Positions 60 through 22,056 of a stretch of 22,056 nucleotides of DNA are shown in pieces. Position 1 is the first letter of the stretch. Every line of letters begins with the position of its first letter. Origin of the DNA: a virus; the IMG/VR virus record IMGVR_UViG_3300005918_000153, positions 1-22,056 of that record; one strand, written 5' to 3'. The notes beneath the pieces are model-generated. The model was not told where the DNA came from and searched no databases. It worked only from the letters and a program-made list of their open reading frames with translations. Position numbers and translations under genes: made by a program.

Positions 60-382
60 TGGGTGGGCCACTCATGGGGCATGATAGGGAACTGCTCGCA
101 TGGCTGAAGACTCTACTGGGCGATGATGCCGGGAACTTATGCCGGGTCATCATAGACATTCCAGTCAACGGCCTTGTAACGGTTTACACTGAGCAATACC
201 CGGACAAGGATATACTGAGCGAACCAATCCCGCAGGCGATATTGCAAGCGGGTCTTTTAAGCGCAAAGGAGTTAGACAATGGGAAACCCAAAATACGTGA
301 AGCCGTATGCCGCACCGTCGAAGGACAAGAAGATAGCGAAGAAAGACACCAAGAAGAAAGCGGCCAAGAAATAGGAGCATAG
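59..382 (+). CDS. Small hypothetical protein upstream of portal
   Basis: This 107-residue protein is not recognised. I chose ATG 59 over the adjacent GTG 56 because the SD GGAGGGG (46-52) sits 6 nt before it and the previous stop overlaps it as TGATG. The N-terminal 75 residues look like an ordinary small soluble protein. The last 35 are highly charged and overlap a second ORF (279-374) in another frame that has its own strong SD, so the charged tail may partly be a by-product of that overlap. It lies directly before the portal gene, where phages often carry small accessory head genes. Confidence 0.55.
   Translation: MGGPLMGHDRELLAWLKTLLGDDAGNLCRVIIDIPVNGLVTVYTEQYPDKDILSEPIPQAILQAGLLSAKELDNGKPKIREAVCRTVEGQEDSEERHQEESGQEIGA
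279..374 (+). CDS. Lysine-rich 31-residue small protein, overlapping frame
   Basis: The ATG at 279 is preceded by AAAGGAG (265-271) with 7 nt spacing, one of the best ribosome sites in this region. The frame encodes MGNPKYVKPYAAPSKDKK followed by a run dominated by Lys, ending at TAG 372-374. It lies wholly inside the 3' part of the 59-382 frame. The SD for the portal gene follows at 375-378. A basic peptide just before the portal could bind DNA or act in head assembly, but that is a guess. A similar basic mini-gene is found at 6082-6198. Confidence 0.5.
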   Translation: MGNPKYVKPYAAPSKDKKIAKKDTKKKAAKK

Positions 383-2597: not shown

Positions 2598-3682
2598 TGA
2601 ACGTGGAAATCGTAACAGAACGGATGCCGTTGGTTGAGATATACCCCGACGTGGCTAAGGCACTCGACAAGCCCGATGCGGAGTTCGTGCGGAAGTATTA
2701 CGCCGGCAAGGCACCCGAACTTCAGAAAGACGAACGGTCGCTGATAGCCTACGTGACAACCGAGGACATCGACCGCGATATGGAAGTCATCTTGACTCGC
2801 GGGATTGACCTGAAGCATTTCAAGAAGAATCCCGTCGTGCTCTGGGGGCATGACTATGACGGCCTGCCGGTAGCGAAGGCCGACTGGATTAAGCGTGGCA
2901 CCACCGGGGACAGTAACGCCCTGATAGCAAAGGCCACATTCGCAGAGCACGCACTGGCTGACGAGGTCTGGAATCTCTACAAGGGCGGGTTCTTGAAGGC
3001 GTTCAGTATTGGCTTCATCGTCACCAGCTACCGTGCGGCGAACAAGGATGAATTCGGTGACAAGACAGAAAGTGTGCGCGGCGTAATCGAGAAATGTCAG
3101 CTATTGGAGTTCTCGTGTGTAAACGTCCCGGCTAACCAGGCCGCATTAGTCGCGGCGGTTGCCAAGTCGCTTATCGTCCTGAGTGATGATACACAGAAGC
3201 AGTTGGGGTTAGAAGACCATGAAGCCGAGGAAGTCGCTGAGGATGCGGCTGATGATGTCACGGGCGGCGTCAAGGCAGACGATGACTTGATATGCAAGAT
3301 GGAGGCCGTGATCGACGAGCTTGGCCTTGCGACTGATGCGATAATGAGCGTGGCGCGAGACTTCCACAAGGTGTATCTGCCGAAGTCCGAGCCGGTGCCG
3401 ACTGTCGAGATAGTCGCGGATGATGTCAAAGAGGTATTCGCTTGCGAGTGCATCGAATGCGGCCACAAGCTAGACTCAGAGAAGCACTGCAAAGACATCA
3501 AGTGTCCGAAGTGTGGGGCACAGATGCGCCGAGCCGAGAGGCCGGGTCCGGGGCAGGCGGATGCGAGTGAGAACGTCGAGCAACTTATCGCAGAGGGCGT
3601 TGAGAAGCACATGAAAACGCTGACAGAAACGATAGATGCACAGTTGACACAGATTACGGGGCGCGTAACCCCGACTGGATAG
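2597..3682 (+). CDS. HK97-type prohead protease with C-terminal zinc ribbon
   Basis: This 361-residue protein has a U35-family maturation protease core at about residues 45-190. Visible motifs are WGHD with the likely catalytic His85, FSIGF with the likely nucleophile Ser137, and LLEFSCVNVPAN (169-180), which may carry the third catalytic residue. The family cleaves the capsid scaffold (delta) domain during prohead maturation. After an acidic linker (about 205-230), a C-terminal extension holds a treble of cysteines fitting a zinc ribbon (C285-x2-C288 and C303-x2-C306, with C283 and C298 nearby) and then a helical tail. The protease family is usually about 200 residues, so this extension is unusual. 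The start overlaps the portal stop (TAATG). Confidence 0.93.
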   Translation: MNVEIVTERMPLVEIYPDVAKALDKPDAEFVRKYYAGKAPELQKDERSLIAYVTTEDIDRDMEVILTRGIDLKHFKKNPVVLWGHDYDGLPVAKADWIKRGTTGDSNALIAKATFAEHALADEVWNLYKGGFLKAFSIGFIVTSYRAANKDEFGDKTESVRGVIEKCQLLEFSCVNVPANQAALVAAVAKSLIVLSDDTQKQLGLEDHEAEEVAEDAADDVTGGVKADDDLICKMEAVIDELGLATDAIMSVARDFHKVYLPKSEPVPTVEIVADDVKEVFACECIECGHKLDSEKHCKDIKCPKCGAQMRRAERPGPGQADASENVEQLIAEGVEKHMKTLTETIDAQLTQITGRVTPTG

Positions 3683-3685
3683 CGG

Positions 3686-3724
3686 TGGAGATATCAGGCT
3701 TGCTGAGCAAGCTGGAGATATTAG
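3686..3724 (+). repeat. Hairpin flanked by 12-bp direct repeat, protease-capsid gap
   Basis: In the 70-nt gap between protease and capsid genes, a GCTTGC-TGA-GCAAGC hairpin (3698-3712) sits between two near-identical 12-mers: TGGAGATATCAG (3686-3697) and TGGAGATATTAG (3713-3724). There is no T-run, so it is not a normal terminator. It could be an RNA-processing or stability element that raises capsid expression relative to protease, which is inference. Confidence 0.45.
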
Positions 3725-3752
3725 CTGCAAGTATCAACAGAGGAGTGAAGCT

Positions 3753-5003
3753 ATGCCAGATGAAGAAGGCACCAAGCTCACACAATCGCAACTGCAAGAT
3801 CAGATCGACGAGGGGGTTGCTAAAGCAATGGCCCCGCTTGCCGATACTGTCGCGGCTAAGGTTGAGGAAGCCCTGAAGGGTCTTCAGGCTGAGAAGTCTG
3901 AGCCGACAGGTGATGAAGCCGATCCTGTGCTGGACGCAGAAGCGAAAGAGCATGATGGGAAGTTTGGCTTCAAGAGTATGGGCGGGTTTTTGAAGGCTGT
4001 TCATGCCGCAGGTGGCGGTATTATGGACAACCGACTCGCCGCGATGAAAGCCGCAAGCGGAATGGGCGAGAACGTAGGGTCTGATGGTGGGTTCCTGGTT
4101 CCCGGCGAGTTTTCTACGGTGTTGTGGCAGAGGTCAGTCGATTCACCCGAGAGCCTGATAGCACGCACAGACAGCTATCCGATTGTGGGCAACCGAATGA
4201 CCTTCCCGCAGAGCGCGGAAACCAGTCGTAAAGACGGTGCCCGTGCTGGTGGTGTGCAGGGTTATTGGCTTGATGAAGGGACAGAGAAAACCGCCTCGAA
4301 GCCGACGGTCGGGAAGTTGGAACTGAATCTGCACAAACACGCAGTTTTGATTCCCGTCACCGATGAGCTGCTTGAGGATTCATCATTCGCCCTTGAGAGC
4401 TACGTTGGAAAGGTTGGGTCGGAAGAGCTTACCTTTATGACCAACAACTCGCTCATCAGAGGCACTGGTGCGGGTATGCCGCTTGGCATTCTCAACGCGC
4501 CGGTTCTCATTACCGTTGATGCCGAGCCGGGGCAGGCTGTGACTACTATCGTGGCTGAGAATATCAGCAAGATGTGGTCTCGCATGTATGCTCCGAGCCG
4601 ACGTAACGCCATATGGCTTATCAACCAGGACATCGAGCCTGAGATGGATAACATGGCGATCAATGTCGGCACTGGTGGTTTGCCTGTCTATCTGCCTGCT
4701 GGTGGATATTCGGCGTCGCCGTATTCGACGCTCAAGGGTCGCCCGGTTATCCCGGTTGAATGGTGCTCGACTCTCGGCACCGTTGGCGATATCATCCTTT
4801 GTGACTGGTCGCAGTATGTGACTCTCACGAAGGCCGGCGGTATCAAGACTGATGTATCCATGCACGTGCGCTTTGTGTATGACGAGCAAGTTTTCCGTCT
4901 GGTCGCCCGTGTGGACGGCCAACCGTGGTGGGCTGCACCGCTGACTCCCTATCAGGGAACAGTCACGCAGTCGCCGTTTGTCGCTCTCGCGTCCCGACCT
5001 TAA
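3753..5003 (+). CDS. Major capsid protein, HK97 fold
   Basis: This 416-residue protein has the layout of the phage major capsid family. An N-terminal helical, charged segment (about 1-70) fits the delta scaffold domain removed by the upstream protease. It is followed by the shell domain, which begins around GSDGGFLVP (109-117) and includes LIPVTDELLEDS and the GTGAGMPLGIL loop typical of HK97-like coat proteins. The SD AGGAG (3741-3745) is 7 nt before ATG 3753. The order portal, protease, capsid supports the call. The mature protein should start somewhere between residues 70 and 110, but the cleavage site cannot be fixed by eye. Confidence 0.95.
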   Translation: MPDEEGTKLTQSQLQDQIDEGVAKAMAPLADTVAAKVEEALKGLQAEKSEPTGDEADPVLDAEAKEHDGKFGFKSMGGFLKAVHAAGGGIMDNRLAAMKAASGMGENVGSDGGFLVPGEFSTVLWQRSVDSPESLIARTDSYPIVGNRMTFPQSAETSRKDGARAGGVQGYWLDEGTEKTASKPTVGKLELNLHKHAVLIPVTDELLEDSSFALESYVGKVGSEELTFMTNNSLIRGTGAGMPLGILNAPVLITVDAEPGQAVTTIVAENISKMWSRMYAPSRRNAIWLINQDIEPEMDNMAINVGTGGLPVYLPAGGYSASPYSTLKGRPVIPVEWCSTLGTVGDIILCDWSQYVTLTKAGGIKTDVSMHVRFVYDEQVFRLVARVDGQPWWAAPLTPYQGTVTQSPFVALASRP

Positions 5004-5018
5004 TTAGGAGATGATGAC

Positions 5019-5510
5019 ATGGCTGGACGAAAGCTCATCGAAGAAGCACTCCCGATATGGTCAACCGCTCCGCAGAACTGGACTAGTGCGGCATCGACGG
5101 GAGATTACATCAGCATGAAGGGTTATCAGTCTGTGATGTTTATCATCCAGACAGGCGCGTGGGCTGCTGGCACTGCCGCGGTAACTGTGAATGAGGCTAC
5201 CGATGTGGGCGCTACTGGTGCTCAGGCGTTGACGTTCCTCGAATACTGGACTAACTCCGCTACTGCGGCTTCGGCCAATATGGTAAGGACAGTCTGCGCT
5301 TCCACGTTCAACATCATCAACCAGGCGAATACCTTGTATGCGATAGAGATCACTGCTGATACTCTAACGACCAATACAAACTACGATTGCATCAGTCTTG
5401 CAATCGCAACGCCCGGCGCAAACGCTGACTTCTATAGCGCGGTAGCTCTTGGCTTCCGCACTCGATACCAGCGCGACACCGCAACAATGATTGACGCGAT
5501 TGCTGATTAA
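5019..5510 (+). CDS. Capsid-proximal structural protein, paralog 1
   Basis: This 163-residue protein, just after the capsid gene, is rich in Thr, Ala and beta-prone stretches and has no signal peptide or membrane segment. It shares a strong core with the next gene (MKGY.S.MFIIQTGA, VNEATDV, LTFLEYWTN, ASANM, RTVCASTF, ADTLTTN, YDCIS), so the two are tandem paralogs. Similar small proteins directly downstream of HK97-type capsid genes are common in phages and are mostly uncharacterised; a capsid decoration role is plausible but inferred. An SD (AGGAGATG) precedes ATG 5019. Confidence 0.85.
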   Translation: MAGRKLIEEALPIWSTAPQNWTSAASTGDYISMKGYQSVMFIIQTGAWAAGTAAVTVNEATDVGATGAQALTFLEYWTNSATAASANMVRTVCASTFNIINQANTLYAIEITADTLTTNTNYDCISLAIATPGANADFYSAVALGFRTRYQRDTATMIDAIAD

Positions 5511-5524
5511 GTTCTCACCCCTCC

Positions 5525-5558
5525 GGGCGGTAGCGGGGCTTCGGCTTCGTTGCCGCCC
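5525..5558 (+). promoter_or_regulatory. 15-bp hairpin with UUCG tetraloop between paralogs
   Basis: Positions 5525-5539 pair with 5544-5558 over 15 consecutive base pairs (11 Watson-Crick, 4 G-U) and close on C(UUCG)G, the most stable RNA tetraloop context. It begins 14 nt after the stop of the first paralog and ends 13 nt before the SD of the second. No T-run follows, so read-through is expected. Likely roles are attenuation, transcript-end protection or RNase processing that sets the ratio of the two products; these are inferences from the structure. Confidence 0.75.
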
Positions 5559-5580
5559 AGACGGGCTTAACGAGGTGGAA

Positions 5581-6066
5581 ATGGCACCACGCAAGCTAAT
5601 CCAGAACCGGCTTCCCATGTTTGGGATTGCCCCCGCCGATTACAGGGGGCTTGCACCATCTACCCCGTATGTGAGCATGAAGGGCTACGATAGCCTCATG
5701 TTCATAATTCAGACAGGGGCGTCCGATGGGTTTCCGGCAGTTATCGTCAACGAGGCGACAGACGTTGCCGGGACAGGTGCTCAACAGTTGACGTTCTTGG
5801 AGTATTGGACGAACGAGGCGAACATCGCATCGGCCAACATGACGCGCACAGTTTGCGCTTCGACGTTTGCCATGAACGCCGCGAACGCCTTGTATGTGGT
5901 TGAGATTATCGCCGACACGTTGACAACGAACAGCGGCTATGATTGCATCTCAATGCAGATAGGCCCGTCTGGGAAGTTTGGGCTGTTCTTCAGCGTTGCG
6001 ATTGTCGGCAATCAAGTGCGCTATCAACTGGATACAGCCTCGATGATTGACGCGATGATAGACTGA
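5581..6066 (+). CDS. Capsid-proximal structural protein, paralog 2
   Basis: This 161-residue paralog of the gene at 5019 arose by tandem duplication and then diverged: the N-terminus (MAPRKLIQNRLP versus MAGRKLIEEALP) and the core blocks MKGYDSLMFIIQTGA, VNEATDV, LTFLEYWTN and ADTLTTN align without large gaps. The frame is open further upstream to 5491, but that part crosses the UUCG hairpin. ATG 5581, with SD GAGGTGG (5572-5578), gives the N-terminus that matches the paralog, so it is the start. Function is unknown; a minor capsid or decoration protein is likely from position. Confidence 0.85.
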   Translation: MAPRKLIQNRLPMFGIAPADYRGLAPSTPYVSMKGYDSLMFIIQTGASDGFPAVIVNEATDVAGTGAQQLTFLEYWTNEANIASANMTRTVCASTFAMNAANALYVVEIIADTLTTNSGYDCISMQIGPSGKFGLFFSVAIVGNQVRYQLDTASMIDAMID

Positions 6067-6249: not shown

Positions 6250-7164
6250 ATGGCAAACCCAGCAAAGTCAGAAGTATTCGCGCAATGGCGCGGCGGTCAG
6301 ACCCTGCATATGATGGAGCAGATGGTAACAACCGGTAAGTATTTCTTCGTCGGCTCGGCAGTAACCGGCGCGAGCGACACCGTGGGCTACGGCAATACAC
6401 CGCTGGCCCCTTATGCGACGCTTGACTATGCGATTGGTCAATGCACCGCCGAGCAGGATGACGTTATCATCGTCATGGAGAATCACGCCGAGACTCTTGC
6501 GGCTGCAGCTGCGGTGGTCTGCGACGTGCAGGGAATCACAATTCAGGGCGTTGGCAATGGCTCGGACAGACCGACGTTCACTTTTGCCACAGACGTAAAC
6601 GCAGACTGGGACATCGACGCGGCTAACGTGGTTATTCGGAATATCAAGTTCATCAACACGATGGATGCGCTTGTTGCGGCTATCGACGTGAACGCCGGGT
6701 ATTGCACCATCGAGGATTGCGAGTTCATCGATGACGGCGCCGACAACACACTTCTCTGGATTTCCGGAGACGCTAACGCCGATGCGTTGGTGGTCAAGAA
6801 TTGCCTGAATCGCGGGACAGACACCGCAGGCAACACCGCCTTTATCAGCATGGGCGCGGCATCCAACTATCAGATACTCGGCCTGATTAGCAATGGCGAC
6901 TTCGCTGCGGCCAACATCGACATGAGCGCGGCTTCGGTTGACTGTGTTATCGAGGGTTGCCGACTCGAAAACGCCAACGCGGTTGATGTGAACATCGAGG
7001 GATTCGCGGCTGCGACAGGTTGGGTGTCTTTGAACTTCTGCCGCAACGCAACCGACACGATACTCACTTGGATCAACACCGTGGGCGCACTCCAGCTGTT
7101 CGAGAACTACGGGGTGAACGCTGATGGCGAGACCGGCCTCCTGATCGGAACTCCTTCTGCTTAG
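6250..7164 (+). CDS. Right-handed beta-helix (pectate-lyase-like) structural protein
   Basis: This 304-residue protein opens with the typical entrance of phage and bacterial parallel beta-helices: YFFVGS (31-36), a Gly/Asn turn, NTPLAPYATLDYAI (49-62), then DDVIIVMENHAETL (70-83). About eight to nine short strand-turn rungs follow (ITIQGVGNG, VVIRNIKFIN, CTIEDCEFID, LVVKNCLNRG, CVIEGCRLEN and so on). Such folds serve as spikes, fibres or glycan-active surface proteins. No catalytic residues can be assigned. The SD GAGGAG (6237-6242) is 7 nt before ATG 6250. Its place between capsid and connector genes hints that it decorates the head rather than the tail, which is inference. Confidence 0.8.
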   Translation: MANPAKSEVFAQWRGGQTLHMMEQMVTTGKYFFVGSAVTGASDTVGYGNTPLAPYATLDYAIGQCTAEQDDVIIVMENHAETLAAAAAVVCDVQGITIQGVGNGSDRPTFTFATDVNADWDIDAANVVIRNIKFINTMDALVAAIDVNAGYCTIEDCEFIDDGADNTLLWISGDANADALVVKNCLNRGTDTAGNTAFISMGAASNYQILGLISNGDFAAANIDMSAASVDCVIEGCRLENANAVDVNIEGFAAATGWVSLNFCRNATDTILTWINTVGALQLFENYGVNADGETGLLIGTPSA

Positions 7165-20190: not shown

Positions 20191-20652
20191 GTGACGAACG
20201 CAGAACGACGTAGAGAGCTTGAGAAGATACGCAAGGCGCACGGAGGGCAACTGGTGCCGGCAGATGTTTTGTCGGTAGCAGAAAGCCCCAAACACCCGCT
20301 CCATGACGATTTCGAGTGGGATGATACAAAGGCGGCGCACCAACACCGGCTATGGCAAGCCCGACACATGATTAGCGTGGTCGTTATTTTCTCTGACACA
20401 GAGAGCGAAGAACCGACCCGGGCATACGTTAGCTTGCTTCAGGACAGAAAGACCGGCGGCGGGTATCGTGCCGCGGTCGAGGTAATGTGTGATGCAGGGA
20501 TGCGCAACCAGCTACTTGCAGAGGCGGAGAAAGACATGGAGGGCTTCCAGGTGAAGTATCGGCGGCTTACAGAGCTTGCCGATGTGTTCAAGGCCATGCG
20601 GGTGGCCAAGCGCGCAAAGGCGGCAACGGCGGTAATGGGGCGGAGGATCTGA
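20191..20652 (+). CDS. Conserved-type hypothetical phage protein
   Basis: This 153-residue protein starts at GTG 20191 with SD GGAGGG (20178-20183) 7 nt upstream. The N-terminus is basic and helical (TNAERRRELEKIRKAHGG). The middle has HPLHDDFEWDDTKAAHQHRL (51-70), a block I associate with a recurring phage family of unknown function. The C-terminal half (AEKDMEGFQVKYRRLTELADVFKAM) is helical. The highly polar DDFEWDDTKAAHQHR motif could contribute to binding or catalysis but cannot be assigned. It follows the GGYNN array, which therefore occupies its leader. Confidence 0.75.
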   Translation: MTNAERRRELEKIRKAHGGQLVPADVLSVAESPKHPLHDDFEWDDTKAAHQHRLWQARHMISVVVIFSDTESEEPTRAYVSLLQDRKTGGGYRAAVEVMCDAGMRNQLLAEAEKDMEGFQVKYRRLTELADVFKAMRVAKRAKAATAVMGRRI

Positions 20653-20682
20653 TCGCCAGCGGGGGTGGCATATTAGATGTTC

Positions 20683-20723
20683 AAACTGTAAGGTTTTACT
20701 GTGACACCATGCTGTGACAGTTT
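20683..20723 (+). promoter_or_regulatory. Candidate operator: inverted and direct repeats
   Basis: In the 94-nt gap before the zinc-ribbon gene, AAACTGT (20683-20689) and ACAGTTT (20717-20723) form a perfect inverted repeat, and CTGTGACA occurs twice (20699-20706 and 20712-20719), 13 nt apart. Such a cluster of related half-sites is typical of regulator binding. No good promoter was found with it: a TATAAT at 20743 overlaps the start codon. Confidence 0.4.
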
Positions 20724-20746
20724 AGCACTTAACTAGGGGTCTTATA

Positions 20747-21088
20747 ATGGGGCGCAACAAGGGACCAGAATCATGCGGGAACTGCGGACGCGAGATCAAT
20801 ACACGGCTTGGCTGGAAATGCCCACGATGCGGATATGACAACATTCGCGGCCAGGAATTCGCTCGCAACATGAACGTCGGCAAGCACATGACAACCGCGC
20901 AATTCAGCGCATATTCCGACGCGGCAAGCGAAATGAACAGAGAAGCCAGTAGGGCGATTCTAAGCGGCCAATGGGATAACGCCTACTCGTTAGACGCATT
21001 AGCCGACGAAGACGCACAGGGGCCATTCTCGGACGATGTAGAGGACGTGGCGGCAGAGTTGACCTTGCAAGGCATGATGCGCCGATGA
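20747..21088 (+). CDS. Small zinc-ribbon protein
   Basis: This 113-residue protein has an N-terminal zinc ribbon with C10-x2-C13 and C25-x2-C28 (SCGNCGRE and WKCPRCGYD), then a polar helical part and an acidic C-terminus. Such ribbons bind nucleic acid or protein partners; the acidic tail hints at a protein-binding or transcription-related role. AGGGG (20735-20739) is 7 nt before ATG 20747. It precedes the structured non-coding region. Confidence 0.75.
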   Translation: MGRNKGPESCGNCGREINTRLGWKCPRCGYDNIRGQEFARNMNVGKHMTTAQFSAYSDAASEMNREASRAILSGQWDNAYSLDALADEDAQGPFSDDVEDVAAELTLQGMMRR

Positions 21089-21163
21089 ATCTTTGCAATC
21101 GGTTACGGATTTATGTTGACATTGCGCGATGGGTTGTTAGGGTTGGGACCAGCATTGTTCTTT

Positions 21164-21625
21164 GACATTTTGGGTGGGTGGGAAGCCCAGTGCCGCGCTG
21201 ACGGAGTCGCCTAACCACATGGCGGTTACGCGGATATAAAGGCCTGAGGGGAACTAGACGAGTGGTCCTTGCGAGAAATTGCGAGTAGGTCTAGGGATGT
21301 GAAGGCAATAGCCCGTGTTCGGCGACCCACCACCCAGACATTAGCTCTCTCATGCGGCGTGCGACGCCGGGTAAGATTGTTCGCGGAGGAACGCGCATCG
21401 TGCAGAAGGGTGCGACCACGGCCTGAGTTATCCGGTCAAGAGCGTGTTCCATCAAAGAGGCAACGTGGCAGGGAGCCGAGTGGGAATCCGGCCATGAGGG
21501 AGCGACATTGACTGCCCCGTGCAGCGTGGTGAGACACGCCTAAGCAGTCTACGTGCGAGAGCCCTTCGAGAGTAGACTAGGGGGGAAGCCGGTATCGAAT
21601 CCGGTCACGGGGTAGTCTTGACATT
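21164..21625 (+). ncRNA. Candidate structured RNA of three domains separated by GACATT
   Basis: No believable gene occupies 21089-21663 (575 nt); the only open frame gives an Arg-rich artefact. Three consecutive domains are each closed by a long-range helix: 21172-21182 with 21326-21335 (10 bp, one bulge), 21344-21354 with 21493-21503 (11 bp, one G-U), and 21510-21521 with 21606-21617 (12 bp, one G-U). GACATT occurs before, between and after them (21164, 21337, 21504, 21620) and once more upstream (21118). Internal hairpins are consistent: 21207-21233, CTAGAC/GTCTAG (21254-21294), CGGCGT/ACGCCG (21355-21369), CCACGGCCT/AGGC-aa-CGTGG (21416-21468) and GCCG/CGGC (21475-21492). TTGACA boxes (21116) and a T5 run after a weak hairpin (21646-21650) could delimit it. 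Large phage RNAs such as GOLLD or ROOL are possible relatives, not verified. Confidence 0.65.
21510..21617 (+). ncRNA. tRNA-like 3' domain of the structured RNA
   Basis: The third domain has four arms like a cloverleaf. A closing stem contains CCCCGTG (21515-21521) and CACGGGG (21606-21612). Then come the bases CA and a 5-bp arm GCGTG/CACGC (21524-21539, six-base loop). A longer arm AGTCTAC/GTAGACT follows (21546-21578), then a variable G-run, then a 5-bp arm with a T-loop-like TATCGAAT (21588-21605) stacked directly on the closing stem. It lacks the conserved D-loop GG, a normal anticodon loop and a CCA end, so it is not a functional tRNA by sequence. Confidence 0.5.
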
Positions 21626-21663
21626 TTGATTTAGCGAGGATAGCCTTTTTGAGAGGACTAGAA

Positions 21664-22056
21664 ATGTGTAGATTTGCCTCCGCGGTGTTTAACCCGAAAA
21701 CAATGGAGGTTCGGGTTGCCGACCTAAGCTCGCACTCAGAAACCTATAAGAAGCTAGGTTTGGCAGACGGGCCAAAACCCAACCAATGGCGAGAGATGCA
21801 CTACACATCTGATGGCGAGGTAGAATGTCGTGTCTTGGACGTGGACAGCCGGACCGCTCCCGAGTGTGTCGAGGCCATTACTGCTCGTTGGCCCTCATTT
21901 GTGCAATTTATTTCGTGGGCCATTAACAACCCGGAGAGCGTTGGCGGTTATCTCGATCTTGGAGGCCTCACTAGCGCCGAAGGTCTGAAGCTTCCGGAGA
22001 GCGTTGGCGGCTATCTCGATCTTAGCGGCCTCACTAGCGCCGAAGGTCTGAAGCTT
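21664..22056 (+). CDS. Repeat protein, leucine-rich-like, 3' end outside window
   Basis: The frame runs from ATG 21664 (SD AGAGGA, 21652-21657) to the window end: 131 codons with no stop. Residues 1-89 form a unique N-terminal domain (MCRFASAVFNPKTMEVRVAD onward). From residue 90 a 21-residue unit repeats, PESVGGYLDL(G/S)GLTSAEGLKL, with regularly spaced Leu/Ile and Gly as in short leucine-rich solenoids. The two copies are nearly identical in DNA as well, pointing to recent expansion. Phage proteins with many such degenerate repeats are known but of unclear role; binding of a host protein or surface is a guess. Confidence 0.75.
   Translation, partial: MCRFASAVFNPKTMEVRVADLSSHSETYKKLGLADGPKPNQWREMHYTSDGEVECRVLDVDSRTAPECVEAITARWPSFVQFISWAINNPESVGGYLDLGGLTSAEGLKLPESVGGYLDLSGLTSAEGLKL
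21931..22056 (+). repeat. 63-bp tandem repeat, two copies, continuing past window
   Basis: Copies at 21931-21993 and 21994-22056 differ at only a few bases (GGT/GGC and GGA/AGC codons), and each encodes one 21-residue solenoid unit. The window ends exactly at a unit boundary, so more copies probably follow. Confidence 0.9.

Follow-up and report, generated by a model that had tools for sequence, protein, structure and literature searches.

Three separately closed RNA domains on GACATT linkers in a tailed-phage genome and an RNA domain family spanning three phages

RESULTS

Three closed RNA domains are bordered by GACATT copies.

Analysis of an environmental phage contig revealed that positions 21164 to 21625 encode three separately closed, multi-branched RNA domains (D1, D2, and D3) strung on GACATT linkers (Table 1). 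D2 and D3, together with one domain from each of two other phages (L184 and L212), are a real RNA domain family that is absent from Rfam. The window, i.e., the whole analyzed stretch of 22,056 nucleotides (IMG/VR record IMGVR_UViG_3300005918_000153), was identified as a tailed-phage contig by its portal, HK97-type capsid, and tape measure. The same virus continues beyond the window end in IMGVR_UViG_3300025697_000125 (L001), with 100% identity across 7310 bp.

Table 1. Location of the RNA domains, their linkers, neighboring ORFs, and homologues
Feature	Position	Strand	Description
Zinc-ribbon-like ORF, 113 aa	20747-21088	+	Immediately 5' of the array; Pfam match below cut-off
GACATT copy 1	21118-21123	+	Upstream copy; step to copy 2 has no closing helix
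GACATT copy 2	21164-21169	+	Border 5' of D1
D1	21170-21336	+	Closed by TTGGGTGGGTGGG / CCCACCACCCA, 11 bp with one bulge, -20.1 kcal/mol
GACATT copy 3	21337-21342	+	D1-D2 linker
D2	21343-21503	+	Helix 21344-21354 with 21493-21503, 11 bp, -20.7 kcal/mol; homologue L212 (167-302, -)
D2 conserved 3' hairpin	21475-21492	+	GCCGAGTGGGAATCCGGC, identical in L212
GACATT copy 4	21504-21509	+	D2-D3 linker
D3	21510-21617	+	Four-way junction; helix 21510-21521 with 21606-21617, 12 bp, -25.2 kcal/mol; homologue L184
D3 conserved 3' hairpin	21588-21605	+	T-arm-like; GCCGGTATCGAATCCGGT
38-bp stretch	21588-21625	+	3' hairpin, 3' closing strand, and TTGACATT; exact repeat at L001 7454-7491
GACATT copy 5	21620-21625	+	3' of D3
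LRR-type ORF with 63-bp repeats	21664-22056	+	Truncated at the window end; extends to L001 7448
L184 domain	IMGVR_UViG_3300005663_000099 6841-6984	+	D3-like; helix extends to 14 bp
L212 domain	IMGVR_UViG_3300045391_002924 167-302	-	D2-like; 12-bp helix
B' domain	L331 2608-2559	-	GCGACCGG..CCGGTCGC; then linker GAATTTT
C' domain	L331 2551-2471	-	CTCGTCGCCCTG..CAGGGCGGCGAG; then CTTTTTAAGGAGAGA and start codon

The original prediction, made by eye, had described a region without a credible gene that resolves into three consecutive domains with long-range closing helices. It had placed GACATT before the first domain, in both linkers, after the last domain, and once further upstream. Inside the region, ORFs of at least 50 aa were limited to an 80-aa ORF with a TTG start on the + strand and a 54-aa ORF on the - strand, in agreement with the lack of a credible gene. 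The predicted helices were recovered, at 11 to 12 bp each, and proved rare: among 20,000 random intervals of equal length from the window, the fraction closing as well was 3.5e-4 for D1, 2.5e-4 for D2, and <5e-5 for D3. A blind scan for chains of the same hexamer with strong closing helices covered both strands of 1.41 Mb from the window's phage, related phages, and prophages. It found three consecutive closed intervals at this site only, and all other chains had two. The folding z score was -3.8 for D3, about -2 (borderline) for D1 and D2, and an unremarkable -1.1 for the entire 508 nt.

GACATT occurs five times within 508 nt, compared to nine times across the remaining + strand. When the region was dinucleotide-shuffled 2000 times, 27 of the shuffles contained some hexamer in five or more copies; thus, the count alone is moderately rare, and the clustering by itself is not decisive. 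The position of the copies is decisive because they border three intervals with pairing ends, and the coordinates of the five predicted copies coincide with the domain borders. The step from copy 1 to copy 2 measures 46 nt. No promoter was called at TTGACATT.

D2 and D3 have homologues in two other phages.

Comparison of the 3' parts of D2 and D3 revealed that the two domains are paralogues, with 38 of 64 positions identical in an ungapped alignment (next best window placement, 30 of 64). Their closing helices differ by four double compensating changes and a single one. A pattern derived from the 3' hairpin common to both domains was used as the search key in IMG/VR and matched 114 stretches. 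Application of the upstream closing-helix test left two clear homologues, the L184 and the L212 domains. The L184 domain carries GTGCAGCGTGG around the end of the 5' strand and the hairpin GCCGGTGTCGAATCCGGT; the L212 domain carries CGGCGTG..GGGTAAGA. By chance, a contiguous 12-bp helix arises at 0.4% of random anchors in the pattern loci.

The four domains follow a common plan. The closing helix comprises 11 to 14 bp, and a C-R-GCGTG signature located right after its 5' strand opens a short hairpin. The central part varies in size, and a 3' hairpin of the form GCCGR-nnnn-GAATCCGGY abuts the 3' closing strand. C-R-GCGTG and the abutting GCCGR-nnnn-GAATCCGGYCA hairpin were present in four of four full members, two of which (D2 and D3) are paralogues of one genome. 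Conservation of the 3' hairpin is partly imposed by the search because the members were found through it; the closing helix and the C-R-GCGTG signature are independent of the search key. The central parts align unreliably, and the inner arms are predictions from single sequences. No homologue of D1 was detected, including in comparison with the extra domains of L212 and L184, and the evidence for D1 consists of its closing helix and its position.

The GACATT linkers are confined to the window's phage, and the strict pattern including GACATT had matches in this phage alone. The phage of L212 has instead ACAATTT and GAATT-type linkers, and the linkers are AT-rich in both L212 and L331, a further stretch of this phage.

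The closing helix covaries among the four domains.

Covariation in homologues, the check that the original prediction had set for itself, was analyzed in a four-domain alignment (A6). In the closing helix, 9 of 12 pairs changed on both sides while pairing was kept. The helix cells were 97.9% paired, none of 500 shuffles was comparable, and slid controls were far below. RNAalifold, unprompted, recovered the same two helices. Sequence conservation is highest in the 3' hairpin, which contributes little covariation. These results support the predicted multi-domain structured RNA with repeated linkers. Covariance model R2 found all members and, hairpin-only noise aside, two informative further copies. 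Its matches to the four training members occur by construction and therefore add no further proof of homology. Low-scoring R2 matches in other pattern loci were mostly hairpin-only, as imposed by the search key, and were not accepted. A fold seen by eye in an environmental phage contig has thereby become an RNA domain family with covariation and a covariance model, and its members span three phages with no protein in common among the parts compared.

The conserved hairpin bears on the idea that host tRNA-processing enzymes recognize the D3-type cloverleaf and cut a polycistronic RNA at the linkers. By eye, D3 is cloverleaf-like: the long closing helix is followed after 2 nt by a 5-bp arm, a central arm, and a second arm, also of 5 bp, which has a TCGAAT-type loop and directly adjoins the 3' closing strand. 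The L184 domain shares this topology and the T-arm-like 3' hairpin, the most conserved part of the domain. However, neither ARAGORN nor Rfam sees a tRNA. The closing helix has 12 bp in D3 (12 to 14 bp across D3 and the L184 domain), the T-like loop has 8 nt, the central arm is unfit as an anticodon arm, and CCA is absent. Such punctuation by tRNA mimicry is very improbable.

Searches for further relatives.

A blastn search with the region found nothing in phages and plasmids. Relatives sought through the zinc-ribbon ORF, the LRR ORF, a 231-aa ORF, and RecT were either the same virus or matched the LRR repeat part alone. In relatives of the terminase and the capsid, the array was absent as judged by blastn and model R1, and neither the phrog_15946 ORF nor RecT had relatives in these records. 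Model R2, with few candidates scored per genome, found nothing in the 392 genomes searched from the phylum to which a Planctomycetia MAG belongs. A search of 1087 genomes of three phyla with the 3'-hairpin pattern gave matches, and a closing helix followed by C-R-GCGTG was present in none of the 74 loci examined; the same was true of L329 and L330, which were read by hand. These negative results from isolates, plasmids, and sampled genomes apply to those collections only.

Genomic surroundings of the RNA.

Small Cys-rich, zinc-ribbon-like ORFs adjoin the RNA in all three phages (window, 20747-21088; L184, 7003-7323; L212/L331, the ORF following array 1). Their products could be an RNA-binding partner, or the arrangement could be due to chance. 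In the LRR ORF (21664-22056, then L001 6918-7448), near-identical 63-bp tandem repeats code for LPESVGGYLDLxGLTSAEGLK, and the window stops inside these repeats. Relatives of this ORF are restricted to the repeat part (EBPR podovirus 1, L003). In L003, a different phage from that of the window, a tandem pair of LRR-type ORFs (2838-3845) lies immediately 5' of a terminase-like gene, so LRR proteins are recurring modules.

Elsewhere in the window, two neighboring paralogous ORFs (5019-5510 and 5491-6066) with ~67% DNA identity over 282 bp are located 3' of the capsid gene and perhaps encode capsid decoration proteins. Across the whole phage, local folding is strongest (z, -4.4) at L009 841-960, between a RusA-like region and the next ORF, where no clear + strand gene is present.

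Parts of the array are repeated within phage genomes.

The exact repeat of the 38-bp stretch is positioned 612 bp further downstream, past the LRR ORF and directly 5' of an ORF starting at L001 7510, so that the LRR ORF sits between both copies. The 5' closing strand of D3 is absent from the downstream copy. This arrangement looks like an ORF module that was inserted or duplicated, the RNA end serving as the joint.

A 69-bp direct repeat is present at both ends of the L212 contig, which is circular or terminally redundant. A second array (L331, - strand) is located in this phage past the ORF that follows array 1. Domains C and C' of the two arrays retain both helix strands and the ribosome-binding leader CTTTTTAAGGAGAGA ahead of two ORFs, whereas their interiors are unlike in sequence and size (136 versus 81 nt overall). 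The closing strands of domain B in array 1 are TCGACCGG/CCGGTCGA, compared to GCGACCGG/CCGGTCGC in B', which constitutes one further compensating change. Arrays 1 and 2 indicate that in the L212 phage, too, closed domains are strung together by short AT-rich linkers.

A stretch resembling a tRNA 3' end (GCCGGTTCAATTCCGGCCCGCACCA) is located just 5' of array 1 on the - strand of L212 (about rc 2050-2080), with an excisionase-like ORF nearby. It is possibly a temperate-phage attachment site.

These repeats raise the alternative of a mainly DNA-level role, in which the elements would be recombination or cassette sites and their folded or repeated ends would be joints for ORF insertion, like attachment sites or integron attC hairpins. 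The exact 38-bp repeat lies on both sides of a 574-bp ORF segment, the duplicated helix-plus-leader of the L212 phage encloses different interiors, and the window's phage has RecT and an exonuclease. However, the + strand G-U pairs in the closing helices (D2 pair 7 and D3 pair 8) would be A-C mismatches on the opposite strand and therefore fit RNA better than DNA. Between phages, the closing helices keep pairing and lose sequence, unlike a recombinase core, and an integrase was not noticed among the proteins scanned, which covered part of the genome. We consider a mainly DNA-level role unlikely.

Terminal domains end close to a start codon.

All terminal domains finish 16 to 46 nt ahead of an ORF start. 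The last domain is separated from the start codon by 17 nt in L212, as is C' in L331, by 16 to 18 nt in L184, and by 31 to 46 nt in the window; the displaced 38-bp copy ends 26 nt from a start codon. Because every terminal domain lies within this range and the helix-plus-leader unit is duplicated in the L212 phage, a role as a leader or intercistronic element is suggested.

DISCUSSION

From the structure, the modularity, and the sharing among phages demonstrated above, we infer that the array acts as a modular intercistronic (5'-leader) RNA, a reading favored over a free GOLLD-like RNA and given a probability of roughly 45%. The chain would be cotranscribed with the surrounding genes and act in cis between them, with the last domain immediately ahead of a small accessory gene's ribosome-binding site. 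There, this domain would shield the mRNA end, insulate the message from the preceding gene, and set ribosome access to the start site. The flexible linkers would space the domains and may be targets of cleavage or binding. In addition, the arrays may be joints where recombination adds or duplicates gene-plus-RNA modules. Several points speak against a leader. RNA between genes tends to fall near the next start codon in compact phage genomes, the downstream ORFs are unrelated across the three phages, and three domains over 500 nt make a large leader for cis control. The full members also number only four, with two in one genome.

The modular build and the duplicated helix-plus-ribosome-binding-site unit pose a testable question, namely, whether the arrays are exchangeable leader strings or free GOLLD-type RNAs. 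More broadly, and rather tentatively, the array RNA may represent a new class of phage RNA in which beads-on-a-string domains from a shared repertoire serve as exchangeable modules, either punctuating operons or building larger particles. In this reading, different phages would keep the interior of a domain, whereas copies inside a single phage would keep closing helix and leader and exchange the interior.

GOLLD and ROOL are abundant RNAs during lysis and form multimeric cages. The original prediction had suggested that the region may belong to or resemble these RNAs. Covariance-model searches of the window and the homologous regions did not support membership or any other Rfam match. At the gathering score, Rfam gave nothing over the window, L001, and L009, and GOLLD and ROOL gave nothing at E values up to 10 for positions 20650 to 21800. 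The L212 and L184 regions contained no Rfam family, and GOLLD and ROOL gave nothing there at E values up to 5. A free, stable, trans-acting phage RNA that is merely built like GOLLD or ROOL is nonetheless a possibility to be taken seriously. Its domains would fold separately, be joined or released, and serve as a scaffold, multimer, or decoy in infection. The large size without a gene, the recurrence of the domain family in unrelated phages ahead of unrelated genes, and the start of the L212 array beside the tRNA 3'-end-like stretch are consistent with this possibility. On the other hand, a simple scan called neither a promoter nor a terminator around the array, and the second array of the L212 phage has only ~140 nt and is located between two ORFs, directly 5' of the ribosome-binding site. 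Both GOLLD and ROOL are frequently found near tRNA genes (PMC12286853), whereas no tRNA was found in the window, L001, and L009, and the stretch in L212 was not called as a tRNA. The general likeness, which also speaks for a free RNA, lies in a large, multi-branched, geneless RNA in phage genomes (PMC12286853). GOLLD and ROOL are far more complex than the array, a string of individually closed domains that are joined by identical short linkers and adjoin small ORFs.

A comparable layout has been described in cluster K mycobacteriophages, whose ESAS comprises 17-bp repeats with a 4- to 13-bp spacer in addition to the 13-bp SAS (PMC3203893). The SAS consensus GGGATAGGAGCCC, which precedes the start codon in those phages, had no match anywhere in the window with up to two mismatches. 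SAS and ESAS are also far smaller than the elements described here, in which helices of 11 to 14 bp enclose 57 to 137 nt of branched RNA. Nevertheless, both systems place phage-specific inverted repeats right 5' of the ribosome-binding site before several unrelated genes, and in both the start-proximal half is partly conserved (PMC3203893). SAS/ESAS is the nearest described layout found (PMC3203893).
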